Positions 4,278 through 36,688 of a DNA stretch of 64,000 nt are shown here, one piece after another. Every line of letters begins with the position of its first letter. Position 1 is the stretch's first letter. Made by a program: the position numbers and the translations under genes. The DNA is from Pseudomonadota bacterium (GTDB lineage: Bacteria; Desulfobacterota; Desulfarculia; Desulfarculales; Desulfarculaceae), in NCBI GenBank assembly GCA_018819925.1, contig JAHJPG010000006.1:1-64000 (forward strand), given 5' to 3'. The notes under the pieces are model-generated. The model searched no databases. It was not told the origin of the DNA and worked only from the letters and a program-made list of their open reading frames with translations.

Positions 4278-4286
4278 CACGCGCTC

Positions 4287-15157: not shown

Positions 15158-15207
15158 GGCATACCCCTGCAAAAAGTGCCCCGGGCCGAAGTCCGGGGCA
15201 GTTAAGT

Positions 15208-16386: not shown

Positions 16387-16405
16387 GGTTGTCACGATCC
16401 AGCGC

Positions 16406-17287: not shown

Positions 17288-17297
17288 GATCGTCCCC

Positions 17298-18455: not shown

Positions 18456-18803
18456 TTGAAAACTCCTCTAAGATCGCGAGGCCGGTGTCGTTAACCTCGG
18501 TTGGTTGATAACTGGCGGAATACACAGTTGTTCGGTCTTTGTTTCTAGCAACCGCCGTGCCACGAGAGGCGCGCTTGGAAAAGCAACTGTAATGCCTGGA
18601 TATGCTTATCTAATAATTGGTTCGCGATAGATATGCGGGCGGAAGATGGAAAGGCTCGAAAGGCCATGTGTATAAGAAAAAATACACCAAAAATCGTAAT
18701 AATAACGAGATTATATATCTAAATTCCAATGGTTAGCTTTAAAAGGGCATCAATGGGGCAATCGGTGTAGTAAAAATACTACTAGTAGAAGAAAGAATAC
18801 ACT
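18456..18803. other. Intergenic control region between the sigma-54 activator and the acyl-CoA dehydrogenase train
   Basis: This 348-base stretch has no gene and is visibly AT-richer than its surroundings. It holds the sigma-54 promoter (18547-18562) and two inverted repeats. One is GTGTAT-N8-ATACAC at 18668-18687; the other is GTAGTA-N4-TACTAC at 18767-18782. A 12-base direct repeat, GAAAAAATACAC (18676-18687) and GAAAGAATACAC (18791-18802), differs at one base. The repeats lie roughly 130-265 bases upstream of the expected start, where enhancer sites of sigma-54 activators usually sit. Activator binding is inferred. Confidence 0.6.
18547..18562 (-). promoter_or_regulatory. Sigma-54 (-24/-12) promoter of the 2-hydroxyacid train
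   Basis: Read on the minus strand the site is TGGCACG-N4-TTGCT, an exact match to the RpoN consensus TGGCACG-N4-TTGCW. The GG is at 18561-18560 and the GC at 18549-18548. Transcription should start near 18536, leaving a leader of about 80 bases before the acyl-CoA dehydrogenase. The gene just upstream encodes a sigma-54 activator, which makes the call strong. Confidence 0.85.
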
Positions 18804-20189: not shown

Positions 20190-20273
20190 TCACTTCGCCT
20201 GGGCGTTTTCAGCGGTTAATGGTTGGATTTTATCAGACCGGCACCCCGCCGGGAGCAGCAAGGATGCCGCGCC

Positions 20274-21398
20274 TTATTGCTCGGCCCGCTTACGCTCGAA
20301 CACGCAGCTCATGGAGCGCCCCTGCATGATCTCCTCGAGGCATTTGTTGCAGGAGACGCAGCGGGCCCGCTCTGTTTGTCCGTTGTGCCAGCGGGCGGGA
20401 AGGCCGGGCTCACTTATCAAGGGGCGGCTGATCGCCACCAGGTCGGCCTCGCCGCGGGCCAGGATGTCCTCGGCCATCTCCGGGGTGCGCACCCCGCCCA
20501 CCGCGGCCACCGGGATGTTGACCCGCCGCTTCACCTCGGCGGCCCAGGAGCGGAAATAAGCCTCGCCCCCCGGACGGTTCACCTTGGTGCGGTACTCGCT
20601 CTGCTCATAGTTTTCGCCCCTCAGACCCTGGCTTATCTCCAGGCAGTCGTATCCCGCCTGGGCCAACAGTTCAGCCGCCCGCAGGCCTTCCTCCAGGGTC
20701 AGCCCCCCCTCAAAGCCGTCGGCCAGGCCCAGCTTGACCATAACCGGATAATCCGGCCCCACCTGGGCGCGAATGGCGGCCAGCACCTCCAGGTGAAGGC
20801 GCAGGCGGTTGGCCAGGCTGCCGCCCCATTCATCCTGGCGGCGGTTGGTTTGGGGCGAGAGGAACTGAGAGAACAAATAGGCGTGGGCTGCATGCACCTG
20901 CACCGCGTCGAAACCCGCTTCCCGGGCCCGGCCGGCCGCCTCTCCGAAGGAGGCCACCACCCGGGCGATCTCCTCCGGGCTCATGGCTTGATTGTCCAGG
21001 GTGAAGTAGGGATCGTCCTGGGGACGCGAGGGGCCCAGGGCCGGGCCCCCTCCCCGCCAGGAGTGCATGCGCGCCGCTTCGCGGCCGGCATGAAAAAGCT
21101 GCACCGCCACCTTGCCCCCCTGGCCGTGGACCTCCCGGGCCAAGTTGGCCATGCCGGGGATGTCGCTTTGCCGGCTCAGGGAGTTCTGCTTGGGCGCCAT
21201 GCGGCCCTGTTCGCATACGATGGTTACGCCGGTGACGATCAGGCCCACCCCGCCCGCGGCCAGATCGCGGTATATGCCCAGCTCCTTGGCAGAAACACCG
21301 CCGTCTTTCAGCCCGGCCTGCTCGTAGGTGGCCGAGCGCATCAGGCGGTTGGCCAGGCTAAGGCCCTTGATATTCAGGGGAGTGAATAATAAGCCCAT
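20274..21398 (-). CDS. Old yellow enzyme family flavin oxidoreductase with [4Fe-4S] motif
   Basis: A 374-residue FMN TIM-barrel protein of the NADH:flavin oxidoreductase/OYE family. It begins LFTPLNIKGLSLANRLMRS, as do the N-terminal halves of 2,4-dienoyl-CoA reductase and trimethylamine dehydrogenase. Near the end a cysteine group C347-x2-C350-x2-C353-x11-C365 resembles the [4Fe-4S] ligand set of those enzymes. The protein stops soon after, so the FAD/NAD(P) domains are missing. Its gene follows the acyl-CoA synthetase by 3 bases in the etf unit. It may reduce an enoyl or dienoyl-CoA or exchange electrons with ETF; this is inferred. Confidence 0.85.
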   Translation of the reverse strand: MGLLFTPLNIKGLSLANRLMRSATYEQAGLKDGGVSAKELGIYRDLAAGGVGLIVTGVTIVCEQGRMAPKQNSLSRQSDIPGMANLAREVHGQGGKVAVQLFHAGREAARMHSWRGGGPALGPSRPQDDPYFTLDNQAMSPEEIARVVASFGEAAGRAREAGFDAVQVHAAHAYLFSQFLSPQTNRRQDEWGGSLANRLRLHLEVLAAIRAQVGPDYPVMVKLGLADGFEGGLTLEEGLRAAELLAQAGYDCLEISQGLRGENYEQSEYRTKVNRPGGEAYFRSWAAEVKRRVNIPVAAVGGVRTPEMAEDILARGEADLVAISRPLISEPGLPARWHNGQTERARCVSCNKCLEEIMQGRSMSCVFERKRAEQ

Positions 21399-21401
21399 GG
21401 C

Positions 21402-23462
21402 TCAGGCCTCCCATATGATATTGGCGTCCAGGGCCAGGGGCTCGCCCTTGCACACGGCCACCGGGTTCAGGTCCACCTGGGATATTGCCGGGTGGGAGGC
21501 CCCCAAGTCACCCAGGCGGCAGATCAACTCGGCCAGGGCATCGCGGTTCAAGGGCGTCTCGCCTCTGAAACCGGCGAAGCGCCGCGCCATGCGCAACCGC
21601 TCCAGCATGGCCATGGCCCGGGGCGGGTCCAGGGGGGCCAACTCAAAGGCCACGTCCGGCTCCAACTCGGCGGTAACCCCGCCCATGCCCAGCATGACGC
21701 AGGGGCCGAACTGGGCGTCTTTGAGATAGCCGACGATCAGTTCGTAGTCAGGCCGATGCTGGGCCTGGAGCACCAGCGCGCCGCGACCGTCCATGGCGGC
21801 TTGCAGGCGCTTAAACGCCTCCTCCAGTTTTGTGGGGCTGTCCAGGTTCAGGCACACCAGACCTTTTTCGCTCTTGTGAACCTCGCCGGGCAACAGGCCC
21901 TTGAGCACCACCGGCCAGCCCAGTTTTTCCGCCGCCGCTTGAGCCTGGTCCAGGTCTGCGGCCAGCGCCTCGGCCACGGTGGGCAGGCCCCAAGACCGCA
22001 GCAGACGCTTGGCCTGGTATTCGTCCCACACCCCTTGGGTGGGGGGCAGATCCGGGGGCAGGGGCCGGCCCGAAGGCTGGGGACGGGGGGCCGCCCCGGC
22101 GCGGGGCCGCCAGCGGCTGGCCGCGGCCAGGCAATCCACGGCGGAGGCCAGTTCGCCAAACACCGGAATACCCAGGGCCTGAGCCTGAATCTCGAACTCT
22201 TTCACCGGCTGGTCCAGGCCCAGCCCCCAAACAACCATGCTTTTGCCCTGGCCGGCCAGTATGCGTTGATAGCCGGCCAGGTCTATTTGGTCCTGGGTTC
22301 CGCCCAGGAAGACATGGATCAACACCATGTCCACTCCCGGGTCCCGGGACACCGCCTTGACCGCGTGTTCCAGAGTGGGGCCCGGACCGTGCAACTCCAT
22401 GGCCGGCCACAGGTCCACGGGGTTGCCCGGCTGCATCCAGGCGGGAAACACCTTTGTCAACTCGGCCAAGGTTTCGGGGGCCAGTTCGGCCAAGGGTATG
22501 CCGTTGTCTTCCAAAAGGTCGCAGGAGAGGATGCCCGCCCCGCCGCTGAAGGTGAGCACCGCCACCCGGGCCCCGGCCGGGGCGTCCGGCAACAGAGACA
22601 AGGCCCGGCCCCGGTCCACCAGTTGGTGGAAATCGCGGGCGGTTCCCACTCCCACCGCCTGCAAAAGGCCCTGGGTTAGCCGGGCGTCGCCGGCCAGGCT
22701 GGCGGTGTGGCTCAGGGCCGCTTTGGCCCCGGAGGCGCTGCGTCCGGACTTGAGCACCACCAGGGGCTTGGTCGCCCCCTCGGCCAGCTCCATGAAGCGC
22801 CGCCCCCGGGGCATGGACTCCAGGTATAGGGCCACTCCCTTGGTGGTGTCGTCGCCCAGCAAATATTCCAGCACATCGCACTCGTCCACGTCGCACTTGT
22901 TGCCGATGGAGCAGGCCTTGTTCACCGCGATTCCCTGCCGGGTGGCCAGGTCGGCCAAAAAGCCGGCCGAGAGCATGCCGCTCTGCACCACCAGGGAAAG
23001 GGTCCCGTGGGGCGGCAAAAAGTCGGTGATGTTGGAGCTCATGAAGGTGAAGAACTTGTGCCCCGGCACGTCTACCAGGCCCATGCAGTTGGGCCCCCAC
23101 AGGCGCATGCCGGCCTGGCGGGCGATCTCCACGCACTGGGCCTGAAGCCGCCGCCCGTCCTCGCCGGTTTCGGCGAAGCCCGCGCTCTGGATCATCACCC
23201 CGCGCACCCCCTTGGCCGCGCACTCCTCGAGAATCTGGGGGGTGAAGCGGGCGGGCACCAAAAGGATGGCCATTTCCACCGGGTGGGGTATGGCCGATAC
23301 GCTGGGGTAGCAGGTCAGCCCCTCCAACTGCTGGTGCTTGGGGTTGACCGGGTACACCGCGACATCCCGGCTGCACGCCGCGTTTATCAGCAGGCTCTTG
23401 CCGGTGCGTTTGGGGCTGGCGCCCACCACGGCGATTGAGGAAGGGTTGAAGAAAAAATTCAT
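21402..23462 (-). CDS. ADP-forming acyl-CoA synthetase (acetate-CoA ligase family, fused alpha-beta)
   Basis: A 686-residue NDP-forming acyl-CoA synthetase. The N-terminal CoA-binding domain starts FFFNPSSIAVVGASPKRTGK. The succinyl-CoA-synthetase-like middle part carries the phospho-histidine motif ALSHTASLAGD (H252). The C-terminal ATP-grasp domain (about 480-686) includes GWPVVLKGLLPGEVHKSE. It reversibly converts acyl-CoA plus ADP and phosphate to acid and ATP, so it can conserve energy from acyl-CoA or activate acids. The ATG at 23462 is preferred to the in-frame TTG at 23468. It lies between the enoyl-CoA hydratase and OYE genes. Confidence 0.9.
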   Translation of the reverse strand: MNFFFNPSSIAVVGASPKRTGKSLLINAACSRDVAVYPVNPKHQQLEGLTCYPSVSAIPHPVEMAILLVPARFTPQILEECAAKGVRGVMIQSAGFAETGEDGRRLQAQCVEIARQAGMRLWGPNCMGLVDVPGHKFFTFMSSNITDFLPPHGTLSLVVQSGMLSAGFLADLATRQGIAVNKACSIGNKCDVDECDVLEYLLGDDTTKGVALYLESMPRGRRFMELAEGATKPLVVLKSGRSASGAKAALSHTASLAGDARLTQGLLQAVGVGTARDFHQLVDRGRALSLLPDAPAGARVAVLTFSGGAGILSCDLLEDNGIPLAELAPETLAELTKVFPAWMQPGNPVDLWPAMELHGPGPTLEHAVKAVSRDPGVDMVLIHVFLGGTQDQIDLAGYQRILAGQGKSMVVWGLGLDQPVKEFEIQAQALGIPVFGELASAVDCLAAASRWRPRAGAAPRPQPSGRPLPPDLPPTQGVWDEYQAKRLLRSWGLPTVAEALAADLDQAQAAAEKLGWPVVLKGLLPGEVHKSEKGLVCLNLDSPTKLEEAFKRLQAAMDGRGALVLQAQHRPDYELIVGYLKDAQFGPCVMLGMGGVTAELEPDVAFELAPLDPPRAMAMLERLRMARRFAGFRGETPLNRDALAELICRLGDLGASHPAISQVDLNPVAVCKGEPLALDANIIWEA

Positions 23463-23507
23463 TGCCAAGCCCCTATGCTGCTGATGAAGTATGCATGCCG
23501 TCCGCCG

Positions 23508-24278
23508 CTACTTGGCCTGGAACTTGGGCGGCCGTTTCTCGGCAAAGGCCCGCCGGCCCTCTTCGTAGTCCTCGGTGTCGTAAAGGGGAAGACCCAGGGC
23601 GTTCTCGCACCACAGGGCCTCTTCCATGGACATGCCCTCGGTGCGGCGCATGCTTTTTTTGATGGCCTGCACCGCCAGGGGAGCGCATTGGCAGATGTCC
23701 CCGGCCATGGCCAGGGCTGCGTCCAGCACCTCCTCCGGCAAAACCACCCGGTTAACCAGGCCCATGGCCAGGGCCCGCTGGGCGTCGATGGGCTTGCCGG
23801 TGAACATCATCTCTGCGGCCCAGGCGCTGCCCACCAGGCGCGGCAGACGCACCGTGCCCCCCAAGCGGGGCAGGATGCCCAAGCGGGCCTCGGGAAAGGC
23901 GAAGCGGGCCTTTTCCGAGGCGATGCGTAGGTCGCAGGCCAGGGCCAACTCCATGCCGCCGCCCATGGCCACCCCGTTGATGGCCGCGATCAGGGGCTTT
24001 TCCAACTCCATGCCCCGCAAGGGGGTGGTGGGCAAAAGCCAGGGCTTCTGGCGGCACTCCTTCACGAAAGGCAGCCAGGTCTTGACGTCGGCCCCGGCGC
24101 AAAAAGCCTTTTCGCCAGCCCCGGTGACCACCCCCACCCACAACTCGGGGTCCTGGGCAAAGTCCTCGAAGGCCTGGTGCAACTGTTTGAACAACTCCGG
24201 GCTCAGAGCGTTCATGGCCTCGGGGCGGTTCAGGGTGAACAGAGCTATGTGCTCTCTTTTTTCATATAGCAGTTCCAT
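23508..24278 (-). CDS. Enoyl-CoA hydratase/isomerase (second copy)
   Basis: A 256-residue crotonase-family enzyme. The oxyanion-hole region is KAFCAGADVKTW, and the second is GVAMGGGMELALACD with the catalytic glutamate; FPEARLGILPRLGGTVRLPR provides the second glutamate position. The ATG at 24278 is chosen because AAGGA lies 9 bases upstream; the TTG at 24287 has no room for a site. It belongs to the etf/ligase/OYE unit, separated from etfA by 146 bases. It would hydrate an enoyl-CoA, but isomerase or other crotonase reactions are possible. Confidence 0.9.
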   Translation of the reverse strand: MELLYEKREHIALFTLNRPEAMNALSPELFKQLHQAFEDFAQDPELWVGVVTGAGEKAFCAGADVKTWLPFVKECRQKPWLLPTTPLRGMELEKPLIAAINGVAMGGGMELALACDLRIASEKARFAFPEARLGILPRLGGTVRLPRLVGSAWAAEMMFTGKPIDAQRALAMGLVNRVVLPEEVLDAALAMAGDICQCAPLAVQAIKKSMRRTEGMSMEEALWCENALGLPLYDTEDYEEGRRAFAEKRPPKFQAK

Positions 24279-24424
24279 ACTCGACAATCCTTTTCCTGGG
24301 TCCCTCGCCGCTTCCGCGCGTAATTTGGAAGGATCCGGCCCGGCGCACTACCAGCGGAGCGCTAAACATAATCAGAATAAATCGTCTTGGCTGGTATACG
24401 GCATTTAGGATTCCCAGGCAACGG

Positions 24425-25456
24425 TCATCCAGGCCGGCCCGGCAAGTCGCCTTGGAGCGAGGCCGGGTCACTGTAGCCGCTGGCCTGTTCCAGCAAGGCC
24501 GGAATCAAGACCGTCAGGTCCTCCACGATGCACACGTCTGCCAGGTTGAAGATGGCCGCCTGGGGGTCGTTGGAGATGGCCACGATGAACCCCGATCCCT
24601 GCATGCCCACCGTGTGCTGGCGGGCTCCGGAGATGCCGCAGGCGATGTACAAAGAAGGGGAAACCGTGGCTCCGGTGAGGCCCACCTGATGCCCGTAGCC
24701 CAGCCAGCCCAGGTCGCACACCGGCCGGGAGCCGGCCAGGGCCGCCGAAGAAAACAGACCGGCCAGGCGGCGCAGCAACTCCAGGTTTTCCGCCTGGCCC
24801 ACGCCCCGCCCGGCGGCCACCACCACCTTGGCCCGGCCCAGTCCCGCGTCGGTCCCGGCGCCGTCCACAACTTCCAGCAACTGTGAACGGCAGGGCGGGG
24901 CGGGCAAGCGCACCACCTCCACCTCGCCGTGGCCTGCCTCGCCGGGTGGCGCGGCCGGGAAGGTCCCCGGCTGCACGGTGAGCACCAGGGGCCAGGCGGT
25001 GGGGGCCAATTCTTCCCTCACCTTGCCGTAGTGGGCCGTCCGTGAAAAACGCGGGCCCTCCGGTCCGGCGCTCAGTCCTTCCACGCCGGGAAGGTAGGCG
25101 GCCTCCAGGCGGGCAGCCAAGCCAGGGGCCCAGTCCAAGCCCGAGGTGGAGTGCGCCCCCACCACTGCCTGAGCCCGCCAGGCGGGCAGCAACTGGGCCA
25201 GAGCCAAGCGCTGGGCCTCGCCGTGGAAGGCGGCCATGCCCTCCACCTCCACGGCCCAGACCTTGACGCCAGTGCGTTGGGCGATTTCTCCGGCCAGTGG
25301 CTCTACGCCTTGGCCCAGCACCGCAGCCGCCACCTCCAGCCCTAGGACCCGGGCCATTTGGCCGGCGCAGGCCATAAGCTCCCAGTTCACCGGGGACAGG
25401 CGGCCCTGGGAATGCTCGGCCACCACCACCACCCGGCTTTTGGCCCCCGCGCTCAC
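24425..25456 (-). CDS. etfA: Electron transfer flavoprotein, alpha subunit
   Basis: A 343-residue ETF alpha subunit. The C-terminal FAD domain is clear from AAGRGVGQAENLELLRRLA, then GLTGATVSPSLYIACGISGA, RQHTVGMQGSGFIVAISND and an ISNDPQAAIFNLADVCIVED stretch. ETF accepts electrons from acyl-CoA dehydrogenases and passes them to a quinone reductase or, in bifurcating forms, splits them. The GTG at 25456 overlaps the etfB TGA (GTGA). No bifurcation-specific assignment can be made from the sequence alone. Confidence 0.93.
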   Translation of the reverse strand: MSAGAKSRVVVVAEHSQGRLSPVNWELMACAGQMARVLGLEVAAAVLGQGVEPLAGEIAQRTGVKVWAVEVEGMAAFHGEAQRLALAQLLPAWRAQAVVGAHSTSGLDWAPGLAARLEAAYLPGVEGLSAGPEGPRFSRTAHYGKVREELAPTAWPLVLTVQPGTFPAAPPGEAGHGEVEVVRLPAPPCRSQLLEVVDGAGTDAGLGRAKVVVAAGRGVGQAENLELLRRLAGLFSSAALAGSRPVCDLGWLGYGHQVGLTGATVSPSLYIACGISGARQHTVGMQGSGFIVAISNDPQAAIFNLADVCIVEDLTVLIPALLEQASGYSDPASLQGDLPGRPG

Positions 25457-26217
25457 AGCAAGGCCCTTTCCCGCAGCATGGCCAACAGGCGCTCCGCTTT
25501 TTGGGCGGCGCTTCCTTCCAGCACCAGGCCCGCCCGCCGCTTTTCGGGCGGAGTGAGGGCCACCACTTTTTCGCGGTCCGGCGGCGCGGCCAAGCCGGCG
25601 GCATCCACGGTGAGCGGAGTGGTCTTCTTGGCCCGCAACAAGTTGGACAATGTGGGATAGCGCGGCTGATTGGGGCCGGACTGCACGGTGAGCAGGGCGG
25701 GCAGGGGCAGAGCCAGGCGCTGCCGCCGCCCGCCTTCCATCTCCCGCTCCACCGCCAGGGCGTGTCCGTCAACTTTCAGGCTCACCACCGAGGTGACCGG
25801 GGGCCAACCCAGATGCGCGGCCAGCATGGGCCCCACCGCGCCCTGCATGGCGTCCTCGGACATGACCCCGGTGAGTATCAGATCGAAGTTTTGCCCTTGA
25901 GCCCAGGCCGCTATCCAGGCGGCCAGGGTGGCCGGGCGGGGCGGCGGCTGATCGGGAGCCAGGATATGCACCGCCCGGTCGGCCCCCATGCCCAGGGCCC
26001 GGCGCAGGACATCCACCACCGGCGGCGGACCCACGCTTAGTACGGTGAGGTTGGTTCGTGGCAGGCGGTCCTTGAGGCGCAGGGCCTCCTCCAAGGCCAA
26101 TTCGTCATAGGAGCCGACCTTGCGGCGCAGGGGAGGGCGGGGGCGCAGTTCGGTGCCTTGGAGGTCGAAAAGACTCTCCGGCTCCCACACCTGCTTGATG
26201 CATACCAGGATGCGCAT
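25453..26217 (-). CDS. etfB: Electron transfer flavoprotein, beta subunit
   Basis: A 254-residue ETF beta subunit. Typical segments are MRILVCIKQVWEPES, YDELALEEALRLKDR, GADRAVHILA and LTGVMSEDAMQGAVGPMLA. It forms the AMP/FAD-binding heterodimer with EtfA, encoded immediately downstream with a 4-base overlap. It is the first gene after the promoter at 26257-26285. It probably serves the acyl-CoA dehydrogenases encoded at 17298 and 27112. Confidence 0.93.
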   Translation of the reverse strand: MRILVCIKQVWEPESLFDLQGTELRPRPPLRRKVGSYDELALEEALRLKDRLPRTNLTVLSVGPPPVVDVLRRALGMGADRAVHILAPDQPPPRPATLAAWIAAWAQGQNFDLILTGVMSEDAMQGAVGPMLAAHLGWPPVTSVVSLKVDGHALAVEREMEGGRRQRLALPLPALLTVQSGPNQPRYPTLSNLLRAKKTTPLTVDAAGLAAPPDREKVVALTPPEKRRAGLVLEGSAAQKAERLLAMLRERALL

Positions 26218-26256
26218 GGCCTCCCCCGTCTGTGCCCGCTATGAACCGCTGACTAC

Positions 26257-26285
26257 AGTGTAGGGCATGGCCCCATCCCTGCCAA
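26257..26285 (-). promoter_or_regulatory. Sigma-70-type promoter for etfBA
   Basis: On the minus strand TTGGCA (26285-26280, five of six) and TACACT (26262-26257, four of six) are separated by exactly 17 bases. Transcription would begin near 26250, about 30 bases before the etfB start. The palindrome at 26294-26307 ends 9 bases upstream of the -35 element. Confidence 0.55.
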
Positions 26286-26293
26286 GATAAAAA

Positions 26294-26307
26294 CGAACGA
26301 TCGCTCG
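26294..26307. promoter_or_regulatory. Candidate TetR-family operator
   Basis: The 14-base near-palindrome CGAACGATCGCTCG matches in six of seven pairs and is of the GAACG/CGTTC style bound by many TetR-family repressors. It lies between the divergent etfBA promoter and the plus-strand operon that encodes a TetR regulator (28317-29033). Control of both units from this site is inferred. Confidence 0.45.
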
Positions 26308-26393
26308 GAAAATAGTTGCATTCGGAGGCTGGCGGGGGCACCATTAGGTTGTACGGCAAACGGTCCGCCAGGGCCGGGGAGAGTTCAGCCGGC

Positions 26394-27092
26394 ATGAGCG
26401 TCTTGTACATGATGCGCCACGGTCAGGCGTCCTTTGGCCAGGAAAACTACGACCGGCTCTCGGGGCTGGGCCTGCGCCAGGCCGCCTTAGCTGGTGAGCA
26501 CCTTGCGCGCCTGGGCCTTAGCTTTGACGCCGCCTATTGCGGCACAATGTACCGGCAGCAAGACACCGCCCGGGAGGTGCTGGCCCGGCTGGCCTCGCCG
26601 CCCCGGCTTGCCGAGCTGCCTGGGTTCAACGAATACGATTCCGGCCCCATCATCCAGGCCCTGCTGCCGGTCATGCAAAAGGAGGACCCCGCCGTGGCCG
26701 AGGCTTGGCCGCGCATGTATCAGGAGCGCAAGGCCTTTCAAACCATCTACGAAGGAGCCATGCGCCGCTGGGTTTCCGGGCGCTACGACACCGGGCCGGC
26801 CGAAACCTGGCGGGCGTTTTTGGACCGCAGCCGTCAGGCCCTGGAGCAGGTGCGGGGGGACAACGGACGGGGCAATACAGTATTGGTGTTCACCTCGGGC
26901 GGCCCCATCTCGGCGGCCCTACGCCTGGCCCTGGGTCTGAGCGACGAGACGGCCCTGCGCCTGACCTGGGTCATCAAGAACGCCTCTCTTACCAGCTTTT
27001 TTTACAACGACCGGGAGCTTACCCTATCCTCGTTCAACGCCACCGCCCATTTGGACCAACGGCGGGAGCCGGAGTTGATCACATACCGCTAG
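26394..27092 (+). CDS. Histidine phosphatase superfamily protein (phosphoglycerate mutase-like)
   Basis: A 232-residue branch-1 histidine phosphatase. The phospho-accepting motif is MMRHGQASF (R8, H9, G10); further family positions are seen in YCGTMYRQQDTA and the late VFTSGGPISA, where the usual GG/H motif is modified. Such enzymes remove phosphate from small molecules or proteins. The start at 26394 was taken because upstream readings lack the family sequence. It is the first gene of the ACAD10/11-like operon, 19 bases before the dehydrogenase. A link to a phosphorylated intermediate is possible but unproven. Confidence 0.85.
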   Translation: MSVLYMMRHGQASFGQENYDRLSGLGLRQAALAGEHLARLGLSFDAAYCGTMYRQQDTAREVLARLASPPRLAELPGFNEYDSGPIIQALLPVMQKEDPAVAEAWPRMYQERKAFQTIYEGAMRRWVSGRYDTGPAETWRAFLDRSRQALEQVRGDNGRGNTVLVFTSGGPISAALRLALGLSDETALRLTWVIKNASLTSFFYNDRELTLSSFNATAHLDQRREPELITYR

Positions 27093-27111
27093 GCCGCCGG
27101 AAGGACAAGCC

Positions 27112-28320
27112 ATGGATTTTCAAATATCGGAAGAGACCCGGACCATCCTGGAGTTGATAAACGAGTTCGTGGACAAGGAACTCATCCCCCTGGAGCAGGA
27201 CTTTCTGCACCGGCCCTGGGAGGACTTGGAGCCGGTGCTCAAGGCCAAGCGGGAGTTGGTCAAGCAGATGGAGCTATGGGCCCCCCTTCATCCCAAAGAG
27301 TTCGGGGGCATGGGCCTTGGTTTGGTGGACTACGGCCTGGTGTGCGAGGCCCTGGCCCGCAACCCATTGGGGGTGTACGTGTTCGGCTGCCAGGCCCCGG
27401 ACGCGGGCAACATCGAGATACTCATCAAATACGGCACCCCGGAGCAGAAAGAAAAATACCTCAAGCCCCTCATCGCGGGCGAAATCCGCTCCTGTTTCTC
27501 CATGACCGAGCCCGAGCAGCCGGGCTCCAACCCGGTGCTCCTGGACACCTCCGCAGTCGCTGACGGCGACGACTACGTGATCAACGGGCACAAGTGGTTC
27601 ACCTCCTCGGCCGACGGCGCCTCCTTCGCCATCGTCATGGCGGTGACCAACCCCGAGGCTCCGCCGCATCTCCGGGCCTCCATGGTCATCGTGCCCATCG
27701 GCACGCCCGGCTTCAACCTGGTGCGCAACATCCCGGTGATGGGCCACGCGGGATCGGGCTGGCACAGCCACGCCGAGATCCTCTACCAGTCCTGCCGGGT
27801 GCCCCGGGCCAACCTGCTGGGCCCCGAGGGGCACGGCTTCGTCATCGCCCAGGAGCGCCTGGGGCCGGGCCGCATCCACCATTGCATGCGCTGGATCGGC
27901 ATCTGCAACCGGGCCCTGGAGATGATGTGCCAGCAGGCCCTGACCCGGCAGATCGCCCCGGGCCGCCGCCTGGCCGACAAGCAGATCGTCCAGGCCTGGA
28001 TAGCCGAGAGCGCCGCCGAGATGCGGGCCGCCCGCCTCATGGTGCTCAACTGCGCCTGGCGCATAGAGCACCATGGCCAGAAGGAGGCCCGCCAGGACAT
28101 ATCCTTGATAAAGTTCTACACCGCCGGGGTGATGCAGCGGGTCCTGGACCGGGCGGTGCAGGTGCACGGCGGCCTGGGGGTTACCGACGACACCGTGCTG
28201 GCTTCCTTTTACCGTGGCGAGCGTTCGGCGCGAATCTACGACGGGGTGGACGAGGTGCATAAGGTGTCGGTGGCCAGGCGCATTTTGAAAGAGTACGCGG
28301 CGGAGCACGGCATCCAATGA
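27112..28320 (+). CDS. Acyl-CoA dehydrogenase, ACAD10/ACAD11-like
   Basis: A 402-residue acyl-CoA dehydrogenase. It shares with the dehydrogenase domain of eukaryotic ACAD10/ACAD11 the stretch ERLGPGRIHHCMR (near 250), the FGCQAPDAGNIEIL segment, the SCFSMTEPEQPGS region, and YDGVDEVHK in place of the usual YEGTSEIQ. In that subfamily the ACAD domain works with an APH-type kinase domain on 4-hydroxyacyl-CoAs, eliminating phosphate from the phosphorylated intermediate. A separate APH kinase gene (29030-30100) is in the same operon here. The subfamily match is from memory, not from an alignment. Its ATG follows an AAGGACA site. Confidence 0.9.
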   Translation: MDFQISEETRTILELINEFVDKELIPLEQDFLHRPWEDLEPVLKAKRELVKQMELWAPLHPKEFGGMGLGLVDYGLVCEALARNPLGVYVFGCQAPDAGNIEILIKYGTPEQKEKYLKPLIAGEIRSCFSMTEPEQPGSNPVLLDTSAVADGDDYVINGHKWFTSSADGASFAIVMAVTNPEAPPHLRASMVIVPIGTPGFNLVRNIPVMGHAGSGWHSHAEILYQSCRVPRANLLGPEGHGFVIAQERLGPGRIHHCMRWIGICNRALEMMCQQALTRQIAPGRRLADKQIVQAWIAESAAEMRAARLMVLNCAWRIEHHGQKEARQDISLIKFYTAGVMQRVLDRAVQVHGGLGVTDDTVLASFYRGERSARIYDGVDEVHKVSVARRILKEYAAEHGIQ

Positions 28321-29033
28321 CCTACCGCCAGTTTACGCGCCAGGCCAAGCTCACCCGCCGGGATTTCTGCCTGGAGATGCTGGCCGCCCACCGCGAAGAC
28401 ATCAAGGCCAAGAAGGACGAGACTGCGGTCAAGAACCTGGAGCTGATCTTTCAGGCCACCCTCGAGGTGAGCAACCAAAAGGGCTTTCAGGCCATGACCA
28501 TGCGGGACCTTAGCCGGGCCAGCGGCATTTCGGTGGGCGCCATGTACGACTACTTCAACAGCAAGGAGTCCCTTCTGGAGATGATCCAGGAGGCCGGCCG
28601 CCGCATCGCCGGGCGGGTGATGCGCCAGGCCGTTTCCGGCGCCGAGGCCCCGCCGGAAAAGCTGGCCGCCGCCATCCGCGCCCACCTTTACCTGAGCGAG
28701 GCCATGCAGCCCTGGTTTTTCTTCTCCTACATGGAGGCGCGCCACTTGGGAAAGGTGGAGAAGCAGCGGGCCAAGGAAGGCGAACTGGCCACCGAGCGGC
28801 ACATAGCCGAGATCATCAGGGCGGGCAAGCGGCAAGGCGTCTTCGCCGATGTGGATCATCGCCTGGGCGCGGCGGTAATCAAGGCCATGCTGCAAGACTG
28901 GTATCTCAAGCGCTGGAAGTACGCCAAGCGCCGGGTGAGCGTGGAGCGCTACGCCGATTTCGTGGTGGGCATGGCTCATGGATTTTGCCGAAACGGCCTG
29001 GGAGATGCCGGGCCACGAGAGGTCCGGCAATGA
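28317..29033 (+). CDS. TetR-family transcriptional regulator
   Basis: A 238-residue regulator with an N-terminal extension of about 35 residues before the DNA-binding domain. The helix-turn-helix region spans about 45-90 (TMRDLSRASGISVGAMYDYF, then NSKESLL). The C-terminal domain would bind an acyl-CoA or related ligand. It overlaps the dehydrogenase stop (ATGA) and the following kinase start, so it is coupled to the pathway genes. It probably represses its own operon and perhaps etfBA through the palindrome at 26294-26307. Confidence 0.92.
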   Translation: MTYRQFTRQAKLTRRDFCLEMLAAHREDIKAKKDETAVKNLELIFQATLEVSNQKGFQAMTMRDLSRASGISVGAMYDYFNSKESLLEMIQEAGRRIAGRVMRQAVSGAEAPPEKLAAAIRAHLYLSEAMQPWFFFSYMEARHLGKVEKQRAKEGELATERHIAEIIRAGKRQGVFADVDHRLGAAVIKAMLQDWYLKRWKYAKRRVSVERYADFVVGMAHGFCRNGLGDAGPREVRQ

Positions 29034-30100
29034 GCGAACTCATGGATCAGACCGCCCGCGTCAGGCCGGGGGAGGAGTTGGACGCCGGGCGGCTGGAAGC
29101 GTTTTTGCGCCAAAACATTTCCGGCCCGCGCGGTCCTCTGGAGATACGCCAATTCCCATCGGGCTATTCCAACCTCACCTACTTTTTGCGCATGGGTGGT
29201 CGGGAGATGGTTTTGCGCCGTCCTCCCCACGGCACCAAGGCCAAGACCGCCCACGACATGGGCCGCGAATTCAAGGTCCTCAGCGCCCTGCACCCGGTGT
29301 TTCCTTACTGCCCCAAGCCGCTGGCCTACAGCGAGGCCCCGGACATCATGGGCTGCCCTTTCTACCTGATGGAGCGCATCAAGGGCATCATCCTGCGCCG
29401 CAGCCTGCCGCCGGAGCTTGGCTTCGGCCCGGACGAGCTGCGCCGGCTCACCCGGCGCCTGGTGGAGGTGATGGCCGAGCTGCACGCGGTGGACTTTCAG
29501 GCCGCCGGGCTGGGCGAATTCGGCAAGCCCCAGGGCTATGTCCGCCGGCAGGTGGAGGGCTGGAGCAAGCGCTACCGCGCCGCCCGCACCCCGGACGTGC
29601 CCGGCGGCGAGGCGGTGATGGACTGGCTGGCCCAGGAGATGCCGCCGGAAAGCCCCACCCCCACGGTGATCCACAACGACTTCAAGCTGGACAACGTGGT
29701 GCTGGACCCGGCCGACCCCTTGAAAATAATCGGGGTGCTGGATTGGGAGATGGCCACCCTGGGCGATCCCCTGATGGACCTGGCCTGCACCTTGGCCTAT
29801 TGGGTGCAGGCCGACGACCCGCCGGAGCTGGTGGGGGAGGCCTCCATGATCACCCATCTGCCGGGCAGCCTGACCCGCCGGGAGGCGGTGGAGTATTACG
29901 GGCAGCTCACGGGCCGGATCATGGACCGCATGGATTTTTACTACTGCTTCGGGCTGTTCCGCCTGGCGGTGATAGCCCAGCAGATATACTACCGCTACTA
30001 CCACGGCCAGACAGCCGACGGCCGTTTCGCCCGGCTGGGCGGCGCCGTGGGAGCCCTGCTGGCCAAGGCCCGATCGGTGATGCACGGGACGGCCGGCTAG
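29030..30100 (+). CDS. APH-family phosphotransferase (ACAD10/11- and LvaA-type kinase)
   Basis: A 356-residue protein-kinase-like small-molecule kinase. The glycine-containing loop is QFPSGYSNLTYFLRM (41-55), the catalytic loop is VIHNDFKLDN (213-222, catalytic D217), and the metal-binding motif is LDWEMATLGDPLMDLA (238-252). This type includes the kinase half of ACAD10/11 and LvaA, which phosphorylates 4-hydroxyvaleryl-CoA. Next to an ACAD10/11-like dehydrogenase it most likely phosphorylates a hydroxyacyl-CoA. It starts within an ATGA overlap with the TetR gene. Antibiotic resistance is unlikely. Confidence 0.88.
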   Translation: MSELMDQTARVRPGEELDAGRLEAFLRQNISGPRGPLEIRQFPSGYSNLTYFLRMGGREMVLRRPPHGTKAKTAHDMGREFKVLSALHPVFPYCPKPLAYSEAPDIMGCPFYLMERIKGIILRRSLPPELGFGPDELRRLTRRLVEVMAELHAVDFQAAGLGEFGKPQGYVRRQVEGWSKRYRAARTPDVPGGEAVMDWLAQEMPPESPTPTVIHNDFKLDNVVLDPADPLKIIGVLDWEMATLGDPLMDLACTLAYWVQADDPPELVGEASMITHLPGSLTRREAVEYYGQLTGRIMDRMDFYYCFGLFRLAVIAQQIYYRYYHGQTADGRFARLGGAVGALLAKARSVMHGTAG

Positions 30101-30168
30101 GGGCTGGGGCGCTATAGGAAAAACAACTCCCCGCCCTTAAGCGGGAAAGGTGCGGCAAGGAGATGAGC

Positions 30169-31491
30169 ATGGACAAGCCTTTTGTTTCCCTGGTTCGCTA
30201 CGATGAGGCCCTGGAGCCGGTGCGCCGGGCCGTGGACCTGTGCGGCGGCCTGGATCGCATCCCAAGTGGCGCCAAGGTTTTCATCAAGCCCAACATCGTC
30301 TATTGGACCAAGGCGGTGAACTTTCCCAAGTGGGGGGTGATAACCACCAGCCGCCTGTTGAACGACGTGGTGTCGCTTTTGCGCCAGCATGGGGTGAGCG
30401 ACATCACCATCGGCGAGGGCATGGTTCTGGGCCGTCCCGATGACACCGAGACCTCGGCTCATGCCTACGATAGCCTGGGCTACGCCAAGCTTCGCGACCG
30501 CTACGGGATAAAGCTCATCGACACCTTCCAGCGGCCTTTCCAGGAGGTGGACCTGGGGGACGGGGTGGTGCTCAACTTCAACCAGGACATCCTGGCCAGC
30601 GATTTCGTGATAGATCTGCCGGTGATGAAAACCCACGCCCAGACCGTGGTCAGCCTGGGCATTAAAAACCTCAAGGGCATGATCGACGTGAAGTCGCGCA
30701 AACGGTGCCACAGCGCGGATCCGGAAAAGGACCTCAATTTCCACATCGCCCGTCTGGCCGACCCCATGCCCCCCATTCTCACCATCATCGACGGCACCTT
30801 CACCTCGGAGTACGGCCCCGCCTTTGACGGGATGATTCACCGCCGCGACCTGCTGGCCGCCTCTTGGGACGTGCTGGCTGCGGACATGGTGGGCTCCGCG
30901 CTTCTGGGCCACCCGCCACAAAGCGTGCCCCACCTGGTGCATGCCGCCCGCAACCGGGGGCGCTCCCTGGACCTGGCCGGGGTGGAGGTCAGGGGGGAAG
31001 CCATTGAGGATCACGCGCGGTTCCACGCATGGTCTTTTCCTTATGCCGAGGACGGCTCTCTGCCGGCGCCCATGGCCAAAAAGGGCATTTCCGGGCTGGC
31101 CTATTACAAATATGACACCAGTCTTTGCACCTATTGTTCGGGCATAAACGGCGCGGTGCTTTCGGCCATCGCCATGACCTGGAAGGGCGAGCCCTGGGAC
31201 GACGTGGAGGTCTTGACCGGAAAAATGATGCAGCCCCGGCCCGGGGCCAAAAAGACCATTCTCCTGGGCAAGTGCATGTACCAGGCCCACAAGAACAACC
31301 CGGACATCAAGGAGATGATCGCCATCAAGGGTTGCCCGCCCAAGCCCGAACAGATCATCAAGGCCCTGCACCAGGCGGGCATCATGGCCGATGACAAGTT
31401 TTTCGCCAACCTGGACCGCATGCCCGGCATGTTCATGAAACGCTACCAGGACAAGCCGGAATACGACCAGGGCCTGTTTGCCATCGAGTAA
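30169..31491 (+). CDS. DUF362 domain protein
   Basis: A 440-residue DUF362-family protein. Landmarks are IPSGAKVFIKPNIV near residue 40, VIDLPVMKTHAQTVVSLGIK, NLKGMIDVKSRK, and a late cysteine-containing stretch SLCTYCSGIN and LLGKCMYQAHK. The family is often found near iron-sulfur or redox genes; its biochemical role is not established. The ATG at 30169 is preferred over 30163 because AAGGAG then lies at normal spacing. It sits between the kinase and 3-hydroxyacyl-CoA dehydrogenase genes and is probably co-transcribed with them. Confidence 0.8.
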   Translation: MDKPFVSLVRYDEALEPVRRAVDLCGGLDRIPSGAKVFIKPNIVYWTKAVNFPKWGVITTSRLLNDVVSLLRQHGVSDITIGEGMVLGRPDDTETSAHAYDSLGYAKLRDRYGIKLIDTFQRPFQEVDLGDGVVLNFNQDILASDFVIDLPVMKTHAQTVVSLGIKNLKGMIDVKSRKRCHSADPEKDLNFHIARLADPMPPILTIIDGTFTSEYGPAFDGMIHRRDLLAASWDVLAADMVGSALLGHPPQSVPHLVHAARNRGRSLDLAGVEVRGEAIEDHARFHAWSFPYAEDGSLPAPMAKKGISGLAYYKYDTSLCTYCSGINGAVLSAIAMTWKGEPWDDVEVLTGKMMQPRPGAKKTILLGKCMYQAHKNNPDIKEMIAIKGCPPKPEQIIKALHQAGIMADDKFFANLDRMPGMFMKRYQDKPEYDQGLFAIE

Positions 31492-31518
31492 TTGAACTTT
31501 CTACCGGGAGTCGAGGAT

Positions 31519-32397
31519 ATGCAGCGGGTGTTGGTGATCGGCGCGGGGTTCATGGGGGCCGGCATAGCCCAGGTGTGCGCCCAGGCCGGCCACCAGGTCA
31601 GCTTGGTGGACGTAAAACCCGGGGTCCTGGCCAAAGCCATGGCCGGCATGGAGGTTTCCCTGGGCAAACTGGCCCGCAAGGGTTTGCTTCGCGAGGAGCC
31701 AAGCGAGGTGCTGGCTCGGGTCTCCCCGGTGGATGGCCTGGACAGCGCGGCCCAGGCGGATTGGATAATCGAGGCGGCCCCAGAGATCGAAGCCCTGAAG
31801 CTGGAGCTGTTCGCCCGTTTGGACCGTCTGGCCAAGCCGGACACGCCCCTGGCCAGCAACACCTCCTCCATACCCATAAGCCGCCTGGCCTCGGCCACCT
31901 CGCACCCCGAAAGGGTGCTGGGCCTGCACTTTTTCGGGCCGGTGCCTCTCATGGGCCTGGTGGAGGTGGTCAAGGGCGAGCGGACCGCGCCGGAGGTGTT
32001 TGAGCGCGGCATGGCCTTTATTCGAGCCTTGGGCAAGCATCCGGTGCGGGTGGAGCGCGACATCCCCGGCTTTGTCATGAACCGCGTCTTCGCGGCCGCC
32101 TTCCGGGAGGCGGCGGATTTGGTGGCCGCCGGGGTCACCACCGCCGAGGACCTGGACGCCGGGATGCGCCTGGGCTATGGCTGGAACGCTGGGCCCTTTG
32201 AGGTGGCCGACAACGCCGGCCTGGACACCTTCGTGCTCATTGACCGCTTTTTAAAATCCATGGGCGAAAACGATCTGGTGGTGCGCTCGGGACTGGTGGA
32301 GAAGCTGGTGGAGCAGGGCCGCCTGGGGCGCAAGGCGGGCAAAGGCTTTTACGACTACACCCCCGAGGGCAAGCGGGTGCCGCGCAAACAAGAATAG
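31519..32397 (+). CDS. 3-hydroxyacyl-CoA dehydrogenase
   Basis: A 292-residue NAD-dependent dehydrogenase of the Hbd group. It begins MQRVLVIGAGFMGAGIAQV, with the dinucleotide fold glycines at 8-13. NTSSIPISRLA and LGLHFFGPVPLMGL carry the catalytic serine/asparagine and histidine region, and GRKAGKGFYDY lies at the C-terminus. It would oxidise the 3-hydroxyacyl-CoA made downstream of the ACAD/kinase steps. The ATG at 31519 has a GAGG site; an earlier TTG at 31492 is unlikely. It is the last gene of the plus-strand unit. Confidence 0.93.
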   Translation: MQRVLVIGAGFMGAGIAQVCAQAGHQVSLVDVKPGVLAKAMAGMEVSLGKLARKGLLREEPSEVLARVSPVDGLDSAAQADWIIEAAPEIEALKLELFARLDRLAKPDTPLASNTSSIPISRLASATSHPERVLGLHFFGPVPLMGLVEVVKGERTAPEVFERGMAFIRALGKHPVRVERDIPGFVMNRVFAAAFREAADLVAAGVTTAEDLDAGMRLGYGWNAGPFEVADNAGLDTFVLIDRFLKSMGENDLVVRSGLVEKLVEQGRLGRKAGKGFYDYTPEGKRVPRKQE

Positions 32398-32437: not shown

Positions 32438-33334
32438 TCAGTAAAGGGCCTCCGGGCCGCGCCGGGCGAAAAGTTCGCCGTCGCGCAGGCCTTGTTCATA
32501 GCTCTGGCGCACCAGGCCGGGATTGGCCTTTTCCCACTTGGATATGGCCAGGGGCCGGGAGGGTTGGGCGTAGGTCACCCCTGGGCGGCCTCGCAGGGCC
32601 TGGGCCGGGTAGCGCCGGGTAAGCAGCACCAGCACCGGCTGTTCTCCGGGCCCCAGCAAATCCAGGGGGGCGTTGTCCAAGATGCCGCCGTCCACCACCC
32701 TGCCGCCGTCCCAACGGCACCAGGGCACCATGGGCGGCAGGCAGGAAGAGGCCACCACCAAATCCACCAGGTCCTTCACCGTGGCGCACTGGGAGGCCCG
32801 GCCCACCACCGGCTGAAAACCCAAGCGCCGGGCGTAGCGGTAATGCACCGGATCGCCCATGCCCTTTTCCAAACCGTAGCTCAGGTAGCCCAAGCACACG
32901 CCCAGGCCCGATTTGGCCCAGTCAGGGGGCCGGGTCATGAATATGCGCAGGTCCGGGCCCTGCTTGAGGCGGCCGAAGGATTCGCCCTCCAGCACCGATT
33001 CCAAGGCTCCCCGGTAAACGGCCAAACCGGTGGGGTCAGGCCAAAAAGGATTGCGTCCGGGAGGGTCGTGTTTGGCCCGGCGGGCGTGGGCGGCCTGATA
33101 ATACTCCATGGCCGCCTCGATCTGACCGGAAAAGACGTGGCAGGCCGTGCTGGCTCCCGCGCTTACCGCAGCCACCGCCAGGGGGGTCAGGCCCAGGGCC
33201 GGCGCCGCGGCCTGCCAAAAGCCGGCTTGCCAAAAGCAGCGAGACCCGCCGCCGGCGAAGACTACTCCATTGTATGGATTGTGATTAAACACGATGCATT
33301 GTACGTCCTGGCGGGTGTGAACGCTGGCATCCAT
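32438..33334 (-). CDS. Patatin-like phospholipase
   Basis: A 298-residue patatin-fold lipid acyl hydrolase. The oxyanion-hole loop is GGGSRC (28-33). The nucleophile serine lies in SAGASTA (about S62), a variant of the GXSXG motif in which the last Gly is Ala. The dyad aspartate is in VVDGGILDN (D215). No signal peptide is seen, so it is probably cytoplasmic or membrane-associated. It is convergent with the 3-hydroxyacyl-CoA dehydrogenase gene and lies at the left edge of the tRNA-Asp integration region. Substrate is unknown. Confidence 0.88.
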   Translation of the reverse strand: MDASVHTRQDVQCIVFNHNPYNGVVFAGGGSRCFWQAGFWQAAAPALGLTPLAVAAVSAGASTACHVFSGQIEAAMEYYQAAHARRAKHDPPGRNPFWPDPTGLAVYRGALESVLEGESFGRLKQGPDLRIFMTRPPDWAKSGLGVCLGYLSYGLEKGMGDPVHYRYARRLGFQPVVGRASQCATVKDLVDLVVASSCLPPMVPWCRWDGGRVVDGGILDNAPLDLLGPGEQPVLVLLTRRYPAQALRGRPGVTYAQPSRPLAISKWEKANPGLVRQSYEQGLRDGELFARRGPEALY

Positions 33335-35107: not shown

Positions 35108-36688
35108 ATGCCAAAAACCGATGAGATAAACAGAAGACAGTTTGTAAAGATGTCTTTGGCCGCCGGAGCCGGGCTTGCCTTACTTCAGGGGCTGGGCACC
35201 GGTGCGTTTGCCTCCGGAAAAGCCGGGGGATTGGCCGGTCTGCCCGTTAGCTTGCTCGAGCAAAAAATCAGAAAGGGTGAATTGACCGCAACCAAGCTGG
35301 TCCATCTCTACCTGGAGCGAATAGCAAAATACGATGGCAGGGCCGGATTGAACTCCTTTATCACCGTGGCGGCCAAGCAGGCATTGAACCAGGCCGAAAA
35401 ACTGGATGCCATGGCCAAGCGAAACCAATTCGCGGGCCCCCTGCACGGGATTCCGGTGGCGGTCAAAGACAACCTGGACACCATGGAAATAGTAACCACC
35501 GGCGGTTCCAAGATTCTGTCACAATGGCGCCCTCCTCAGGACGCATATGCCGTTGCCCGTTTAAAACAAGCCGGCGCCATCATTCTGGGCAAAACCAATA
35601 TGCACGAGTTTGCTTTCGGCATCACCACCAATAACCCTCATTACGGACCTTGCCGCAATCCATATGACAAAACGCGCATCCCCGGCGGCTCCAGCGGAGG
35701 ATCGGCCGCTGCGGTGGCAGCCGACCTGTGCGCCGCTGCATTGGGCACCGACACCGGGGGGTCGGCGAGAATCCCTGCTGCTCTTTGCGGCGTAGTGGGT
35801 TTGAAACCAACGCTGGGTCTGGTTGGACGAGGCGGCATGATGCACCTGTCGTTCACCCGAGACTGTATCGGCCCCATAACCCGATCAGTGGCCGATGCCG
35901 CCATAATGCTGGAGGCCATCGCCGGGCGGGACGTCCGGGATCCTGAAAGCGCTCCGGCTCCATCATCGGTTCCGCAATATTCGGCATTTCCGAGGACGGG
36001 TCTCAAGGGGAAGAAATTCGGCCTGCCCCGGAAATATTTCTTTGACAACATCAGCGCCGACACCGCCCGGGTGATGGAAAAATCGTTGGAACTTATAGAA
36101 AAACAGGGTGGGCAAATCAAGGAAGTCGAAGTGAAGCACATGGACTTGGCCACCCCCACCGGCTTCAACATAGTGCTCGCCGAAGCTGTTTACTTGATGG
36201 AGGACTATCTGCGTTCCTTCGACCCCAAGGCCACCATTGATAAGTATCTGGAACAAATGGGCCCTGACGTCAAAGCGGTTCTAGGTAGCCAGAAAGGGAC
36301 TCCTAAATCAAATCCCGTGCCCGGATGGCTTTACTCCAAATCCCTGCGCAAGGACCGCAAGTTGATGATCTCTGGTTTCGCCCAGGCCCTGGAAGGCCTG
36401 GACGGCCTTCTGTTGCCCACCACACCGCTTCCCGCAACCAAGATTGGCGAAGATGTGGAGATAATGCTTAACGGTAAGAAGGCGAACACCTTCCTAACTT
36501 TCATACGAAATTGCGATCCGGTAAGTGTCGCCGGCTATCCGGCAATTTCGGTTCCCGCCGGGTTTTCCAGTGAAGGGTTGCCCATTGGCCTGCAGATTGT
36601 TGCCAGGCCCTGGGAGGAAATGAATCTTTTGTCCTTGGGCTACGGTTTTGAACAAACCGCCAAGGCTCGAAAGCCGCCTAAGCTCTAG
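35108..36688 (+). CDS. Tat-exported amidase (amidase signature family)
   Basis: A 526-residue amidase-signature hydrolase. The N-terminus is a twin-arginine signal (NRRQFVKMSLAAGAGLALL), so the folded enzyme goes to the periplasm. The Ser-cisSer-Lys triad is visible: K120 in VAVKDN, the cis-serine in IPGGSSGGSA (about 195), and the nucleophile S219 in GTDTGGSARIPA. It hydrolyses an amide; the substrate is unknown. An AAAGGAG site precedes the ATG. It forms a two-gene module with the LuxR-type regulator between two tRNA-Asp remnants. Confidence 0.93.
   Translation: MPKTDEINRRQFVKMSLAAGAGLALLQGLGTGAFASGKAGGLAGLPVSLLEQKIRKGELTATKLVHLYLERIAKYDGRAGLNSFITVAAKQALNQAEKLDAMAKRNQFAGPLHGIPVAVKDNLDTMEIVTTGGSKILSQWRPPQDAYAVARLKQAGAIILGKTNMHEFAFGITTNNPHYGPCRNPYDKTRIPGGSSGGSAAAVAADLCAAALGTDTGGSARIPAALCGVVGLKPTLGLVGRGGMMHLSFTRDCIGPITRSVADAAIMLEAIAGRDVRDPESAPAPSSVPQYSAFPRTGLKGKKFGLPRKYFFDNISADTARVMEKSLELIEKQGGQIKEVEVKHMDLATPTGFNIVLAEAVYLMEDYLRSFDPKATIDKYLEQMGPDVKAVLGSQKGTPKSNPVPGWLYSKSLRKDRKLMISGFAQALEGLDGLLLPTTPLPATKIGEDVEIMLNGKKANTFLTFIRNCDPVSVAGYPAISVPAGFSSEGLPIGLQIVARPWEEMNLLSLGYGFEQTAKARKPPKL

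Follow-up and report, generated by a model that had tools for sequence, protein, structure and literature searches.

A predicted TetR-controlled hydroxyacyl-CoA module of Desulfarculaceae as a split, sister-lineage version of ACAD10/ACAD11 and LvaA/LvaC

We studied a group of six plus-strand genes at positions 26394-32397 of a 64,000-nucleotide stretch (in the following the window; positions 1 to 64,000 of contig JAHJPG010000006.1) from a Desulfarculaceae genome. It is quite likely, in our assessment, that these genes belong to a TetR-controlled catabolic module for hydroxyacyl-CoAs, probably 4-hydroxyacyl-CoAs, i.e., to a split, sister-lineage version of the mammalian ACAD10/ACAD11 and the bacterial LvaA/LvaC systems. 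The initial annotation of the locus had proposed a route in which a hydroxyacyl-CoA is phosphorylated and the phosphate subsequently eliminated. Such a route is likely, because the encoded acyl-CoA dehydrogenase (ACAD) carries all tested phosphoacyl-recognition residues and the encoded APH-family kinase its catalytic residues; the reaction itself, the 4-position and the chain length are what we infer from the sequences.

The six genes encode, in this order, a histidine-phosphatase-superfamily protein (26394-27092; PF00300), an ACAD of the ACAD10/11-LvaC type that is predicted to eliminate phosphate (27112-28320), a TetR-family regulator (28317-29033; Pfam TetR_C_24), an APH-family protein that is a predicted hydroxyacyl-CoA kinase (29030-30100; PF01636, E 4.8e-55), a DUF362 protein (30163-31491; PF04015) and a 3-hydroxyacyl-CoA dehydrogenase (3HCDH; 31492-32397; PF02737/PF00725; TTG start, alternative ATG at 31519). 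The genes of ACAD and TetR as well as those of TetR and APH overlap by 4 bases. All six had been placed correctly before, with families that agree with Pfam, and kinase and dehydrogenase are indeed separate neighbours. The unit nevertheless exceeds this earlier description, since a divergent minus-strand operon extends from 26217 down to 21402 and its first gene starts 176 bases from the first plus-strand gene. It encodes the two subunits of an electron-transfer flavoprotein (ETF), namely EtfB (25453-26217; PF01012) and EtfA (24425-25456; PF00766/PF01012), an enoyl-CoA hydratase (ECH; 23508-24287; PF00378), which would catalyse the step after elimination, and an NDP-forming acyl-CoA ligase (21402-23468; PF13607/PF13549), a candidate activator of the acid. 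The roles of the latter two are suggested by synteny within the genus.

The case for the route is carried by the dehydrogenase. Its best PDB matches are ACAD11 (2wbi/8v3u, human and mouse) and 4hr3 with 273-255 bits, with classical ACADs scoring at most 180 bits. For ACAD11, mutation has shown that R626, H634, R637 and the catalytic D753 are needed for the turnover of 4-phosphoacyl-CoA (PMC12440821); the chain of the mutant structure 8v3v carries N at the D753 site. The respective window residues are R249, H257, R260 and D377, and they are invariant in 81/81 sequences of the window's own clade as well as in all 17 others of the superclade described below. R254 is likewise invariant within the window clade (81/81). 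Among 28 classical ACADs, the same positions hold a single R at R637, a single D at D753, and neither R626 nor H634 in any sequence. H257 and R260 fall inside the GRIHHCMR motif (residues 253-260; 27868-27891), and the catalytic Asp377 is followed by the DEVH motif (residues 380-383, 28249-28260; together 28240-28260), such that both hallmarks named in the initial annotation are present. That is, the catalytic residue is Asp instead of Glu and a phosphate pocket of the R626/H634/R637 type is present, which places the protein in the broad ACAD10/11-like group, and the suggested alignment to ACAD11 and classical ACADs finds every tested phosphoacyl-recognition residue shared with ACAD11. A fused kinase-ACAD chain as in the bifunctional ACAD10/11-type proteins is not formed, given the separate genes.

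With regard to phylogeny, we computed a quick maximum-likelihood tree with SH-aLRT support, the outgroup of which consisted of 1ukw and 27 other ACADs of the same genome. The window clade and the ACAD11 clade form a superclade apart from all 28 classical ACADs (SH-aLRT 100). Within it, the window ACAD lies outside the ACAD11 clade (SH-aLRT 100) in a sister clade of its own (SH-aLRT 99), which spans Desulfobacterota, Spirochaetota, Planctomycetota, Chloroflexota and others. The earlier assignment to the ACAD10/11 group thus holds for the wider superclade and fails for the clade that contains ACAD11 itself. The identity values reflect this, i.e., the window ACAD is 41% identical to ACAD11 while bacterial members of the ACAD11 clade reach 57% on average. 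Since the published identity of LvaC to ACAD11 is 56% (PMC11342911) and matches the latter rather than the former value, LvaC presumably belongs to the ACAD11 clade. A classical beta-oxidation ACAD is rejected by both the tree and the active-site residues.

The kinase shows a consistent picture. Its PDB matches are 9o56, 3dxp and ACAD11, and its CoA-side R173, catalytic D217 and N222 and metal-binding D238 correspond to R176, D220, N225 and D240 of ACAD11, a match that holds for every homologue compared. R173, D217 and N222 are invariant in 57 homologues from the surveyed loci and in 17 plasmid/PDB homologues. All elements of the ACAD10/11-LvaA-type kinases that we compared are therefore present, i.e., the APH family, the catalytic Asp/Asn, the DFG-type Asp and the CoA-side Arg, and we infer that the protein is a hydroxyacyl-CoA kinase. 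An antibiotic-resistance APH can be dismissed, as resistance-type kinases match only at E values of about 1e-4 to 1e-5 compared to the best matches 9o56, 3dxp and the ACAD11 kinase. The entry 3dxp was deposited as a 'putative acyl-CoA dehydrogenase' and is an APH-family kinase; its title was probably carried over from the annotation of fused ACAD10/11 proteins. The kinase tree departs from the ACAD tree in that the kinases of Azospirillum, Ideonella, Acinetobacter and Pseudoalteromonas (L122, L123, L124, L125) group with the window type while their ACADs are found in the ACAD11 clade. Given this disagreement, the partners were probably exchanged between lineages.

We also investigated how far the arrangement is conserved. 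The closest relatives are Desulfarculaceae/Desulfarculus metagenome-assembled genomes with 83-93% ACAD identity (93% for locus L005), an affiliation that fits the label 'anaerobe' used in the initial annotation. The order HisPhos-ACAD-TetR-APH-DUF362-3HCDH is kept in 8/8 Desulfarculaceae regions with enough sequence (L155, L156, L157, L158, L159, L160, L163, L164; three more are cut by contig ends) and is therefore not a chance neighbourhood, which confirms that the TetR, 3HCDH, phosphatase-family and DUF362 genes form one unit with kinase and dehydrogenase. On the divergent side, five genomes of the genus share the arrangement EtfB-EtfA-ECH-ligase-OYE-sigma54. For a wider view, we surveyed 80 loci from many phyla, divided into close (ACAD identity of at least 65%) and distant ones (below), with denominators that vary by gene. 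ACAD and APH form the core of these loci, with APH downstream in 30/36 close and 20/27 distant ones. HisPhos is found directly upstream of ACAD in 27/38 close and 10/31 distant loci, a TetR gene is linked in 25/36 and 2/27, and EtfB in 24/32 and 4/27, respectively. DUF362 is near the module in 6 of the 80 loci. Taxon ranks of 'Deltaproteobacteria' metagenome-assembled genomes, given as Myxococcota in this survey, were left aside. In the Spirochaetes locus L040, two ACAD copies are present (8001-9209 and 14473-15666) with 67% and 63% identity to the window protein.

Comparison of the divergent intergenic regions revealed a palindrome-like putative operator, CGAACGATCGCTCG, at 26294-26307 between the two operons, 8 bp before a -35-like TTGCAT (26316). 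Nowhere else in the 4.03-Mb genome does a match with one mismatch or fewer occur. Among loci with at least 1.3 kb of upstream sequence, the 1.6 kb upstream of the ACAD contain a CGARCGNWCGYTCG-like site in 22/28 loci with a TetR gene vs. 3/41 without (Fisher p 1e-9, not corrected for relatedness). The site is thus a probable TetR operator, and since it lies between the operons and tracks the TetR gene across phyla, both divergent operons are probably one regulon under TetR. In locus L028 (SAR324), operator-like sites are found at -3916, +3183 and +6651 relative to the ACAD along with a second related TetR gene, which suggests a wider regulon there.

Taken together, the module may work as follows. 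The hydroxy acid would first be activated by a CoA ligase, for which the NDP-forming enzyme encoded nearby is a candidate given its synteny. The APH protein would then phosphorylate the hydroxyl group, as its family, catalytic residues and linkage suggest. Judged from the conserved phosphate pocket, D377 of the ACAD would take the alpha-proton, FAD would be used transiently, and phosphate would be expelled to yield a 2-enoyl-CoA. ECH, 3HCDH and thiolase, the families of which are observed in the neighbourhood, would complete beta-oxidation. The TetR protein, probably an acyl-CoA sensor, would repress both divergent operons from the operator at 26294. The phosphatase-like protein probably does not act as a hydrolase but binds the phospho-intermediate or the kinase, or holds one of them in check. 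The dedicated ETF probably re-oxidises flavin that escapes the neutral cycle; this is the least certain step.

Histidine phosphatases use two catalytic His and two Arg residues. The phosphatase-like protein keeps R8 and H9 (RHG), R54 and E80, while the second catalytic His is replaced by Ser168 (codon 26895-26897), such that it lacks the complete residue set of an active branch-1 histidine phosphatase. The replacement is found in 48/48 module-linked homologues from Desulfobacterota to Burkholderia, Pseudoalteromonas and Deinococcus (loci L005-L084, L121-L126). In an alignment with related genomes, Ser is present in 35/35 linked members and His in 18/18 unlinked ordinary ones, and neither set has lost any of the other catalytic residues. 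A phylum-wide search yielded 18 places, which without exception read SGG or SAG. Within the 35-sequence alignment, N196 and H219 are also invariant and might compensate for the lost His. In the sample used for this search, the protein occurs in 15 of 148 genomes, all 15 of which have the ACAD (present in 23/148), vs. 2.3 co-occurrences expected for independence if relatedness is ignored. Hence, the 'phosphatase' of the initial annotation is right as a family name by Pfam and misses the loss of the second catalytic His; given the Ser in all linked homologues, the partner is probably not an ordinary phosphatase.

It may still be that the protein is an active phosphatase, which clears surplus 4-phosphoacyl-CoA or helps to remove phosphate, although we regard this as rather improbable. 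RHG, R54 and E80 are kept, the predicted model shows a phosphatase fold with high confidence (pLDDT 95; 4ij5 with TM 0.71), and for Pseudomonas citronellolis phosphate removal was proposed as the role of the phosphatase encoded beside LvaA (PMC6692424). The lost His, being replaced without exception among the linked homologues, argues against the simple form of that proposal. A parallel is offered by the degenerate phosphatase-type (HAD) domain of ACAD10. With one of its catalytic residues lost, this domain shows practically no activity, and it acts as a restraint on the kinase (PMC11342911). The window partner is a histidine-phosphatase relative of unrelated fold, not a HAD protein; by analogy, we would assign it a braking or sensing role.

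The dedicated ETF is a puzzle because the ACAD10/11 chemistry is redox-neutral, i.e., it needs no electron acceptor and the electrons return to the substrate (PMC11342911). The window EtfB and 39 linked EtfBs (Desulfobacterota, Spirochaetota, others) group together (SH-aLRT 97) in a clade to which none of the genome's five other EtfBs belongs; three linked Planctomycete EtfBs are outside of it. Of the genome's other ACADs, only 2/31 have an ETF nearby. With respect to bifurcation type, EtfB is nearest to non-bifurcating and EtfA nearest to bifurcating ETFs. Possible roles we considered are the rescue of an enzyme stuck in its reduced state, a net-oxidising variant, and service to other ACADs. 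According to the last, the ETF serves classical ACADs of the same beta-oxidation island (e.g., 17298-18455, minus strand) and takes no part in the ACAD10/11-like reaction. We consider this doubtful: a classical ACAD, a thiolase and a 3HCDH are indeed encoded further along the same strand and recur in the genus, but the ETF stays with the module in lineages where the locus lacks this ACAD, and the EtfB clade is specific to the module.

Several points weigh against a split ACAD10/11-like route for 4-hydroxyacyl-CoAs. The ETF is unexpected for a redox-neutral ACAD (PMC11342911). The substrate may differ because of the 41% identity and the position outside the ACAD11 clade, and we found no assay of any member of the window clade. 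Furthermore, the sequences of ligase and kinase carry no test for a 4-hydroxy substrate, and the ligase scores below every curated NCBIfam cut-off. Kinase and ACAD might have a different hydroxylated substrate (a 5-hydroxy, branched or aromatic acyl-CoA) instead of straight-chain 4-hydroxyacyl-CoAs. Besides the separate clade, this would agree with a ligase type that differs from LvaE and with the lack of an LvaD-type reductase gene in the six-gene operon. However, phosphate binding and catalysis rely on identical residues, and it is these that fix the geometry; we hold a different substrate class to be unlikely.

Still less probable is an ETF-coupled variant, in which the ACAD, instead of giving the hydride back, would oxidise the phosphoacyl-CoA, expel phosphate and release a 2,4-dienoyl-CoA; the electrons would pass to the dedicated ETF and a reductase, e.g., the OYE-family protein encoded at 20274-21398 (minus strand), would reduce the diene. 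The separate EtfB clade, the enrichment of EtfB beside close relatives (24/32) compared to the genome's other ACADs (2/31), the operator region common to both operons and, within the genus, the presence of an OYE-type gene in the divergent operon would all fit, and a dienoyl intermediate has been postulated (PMC11342911). On the other hand, none of the tested ACAD10/11 pocket residues has changed, conservation of the OYE gene does not extend beyond the genus, and distant clade members mostly have no linked ETF (4/27 have one). A bolder picture, which we put forward tentatively, combines both oddities: a bacterial lineage, sister to ACAD10/11 and with its best representation among anaerobes, in which the ACAD is wired to its own ETF and exchanges electrons, unlike the neutral mammalian reaction, and in which a broken phosphatase is kept as brake or sensor on the phospho-intermediate, both in kinase-ACAD modules of very different bacteria and, with an unrelated fold, in animal ACAD10.

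The DUF362 protein has four invariant Cys (C322, C325, C371, C391), which suggests a metal site. Pfam places DUF362 and LarA in the same clan (PMC11770544), and the best 16 PDB matches of the predicted model are all LarA-type enzymes, at low confidence (pLDDT 65, TM about 0.3). The genome has LarC and also canonical LarAs, and the latter account for LarC; one canonical LarA-family (Lar_N) gene lies in the window (3051-4280, minus strand; match 3666-4247). An epimerase or racemase for hydroxyacyl substrates, e.g., a nickel-pincer racemase that supplies the R-hydroxy isomer preferred by the ACAD10 kinase, is a lead only.

With regard to other neighbours, the minus strand at 15208-21398 carries more beta-oxidation genes (thiolase, 3HCDH, classical ACAD) besides a sigma54 activator (18804-20189) and the OYE-family reductase. 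A patatin-like lipase gene (32438-33334) adjoins the plus-strand operon, and farther along, at 35108-36688, lies the gene of an amidase whose Tat-type signal is weak; both are possible suppliers of substrate acids.

Finally, we compared the module with known systems. It shares with ACAD10/ACAD11 of mammals the kinase and ACAD families, including the conserved counterparts of kinase D220/N225/R176 and ACAD R626/H634/R637/D753, and differs in that kinase and ACAD are separate and have dedicated ETF, TetR and DUF362 partners, and in that the ACAD belongs to a sister clade. As in Pseudomonas putida LvaA/LvaC, the kinase is split from an ACAD, and the two would convert 4-hydroxyacyl-CoA via a phospho-intermediate. 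Unlike the P. putida lva genes, the window has an NDP-forming ligase instead of LvaE, a TetR protein instead of the sigma54 regulator LvaR, and an ETF; the window's sigma54 activator is the one at 18804-20189. The LvaB 12-kDa partner, the LvaD reductase and the LvaE ligase are not among the annotated genes of 21402-32397, where no search with the LvaB sequence was made. The lva cluster of P. citronellolis LA18 has APH, histidine phosphatase and ACAD together and misses LvaB (PMC6692424), while being unlike the window in that it belongs to a levulinate-induced aerobe, includes an SDR, and encodes an ACAD that is 78% identical to LvaC. The 4hr3 ACAD and the proteobacterial LysR-ACAD-SDR-APH-histidine phosphatase operons show the same families, linkage and Ser-for-His phosphatase, with ACADs from the ACAD11 clade, LysR and SDR as partners, and no linked ETF seen. 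The view of an 'anaerobe's version with extra partners' is therefore only partly adequate: the split arrangement and the phosphatase are also found in aerobic proteobacteria, Deinococcus and P. citronellolis (PMC6692424), while the distinctive features are the TetR-operator pair, the dedicated ETF and, at family level, DUF362 and 3HCDH. In short, lva loci had already provided examples of APH-ACAD-phosphatase clusters; what would surprise a specialist is that an ETF is linked and that the phosphatase has invariably lost its second catalytic His.

The function of ACAD10/11 was assigned only in 2024-2025. Our results indicate that this chemistry has a whole sister branch with a recurring partner set, which is common in Desulfobacterota and also found in Spirochaetota, Planctomycetota and Chloroflexota. 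It raises the questions why a redox-neutral enzyme has long kept its own ETF and why its 'phosphatase' partner is always without a catalytic His. If the proposed route is true, anaerobic sediments would be added to the settings in which 4-hydroxy acids, lactones and lipid-peroxidation products are degraded.

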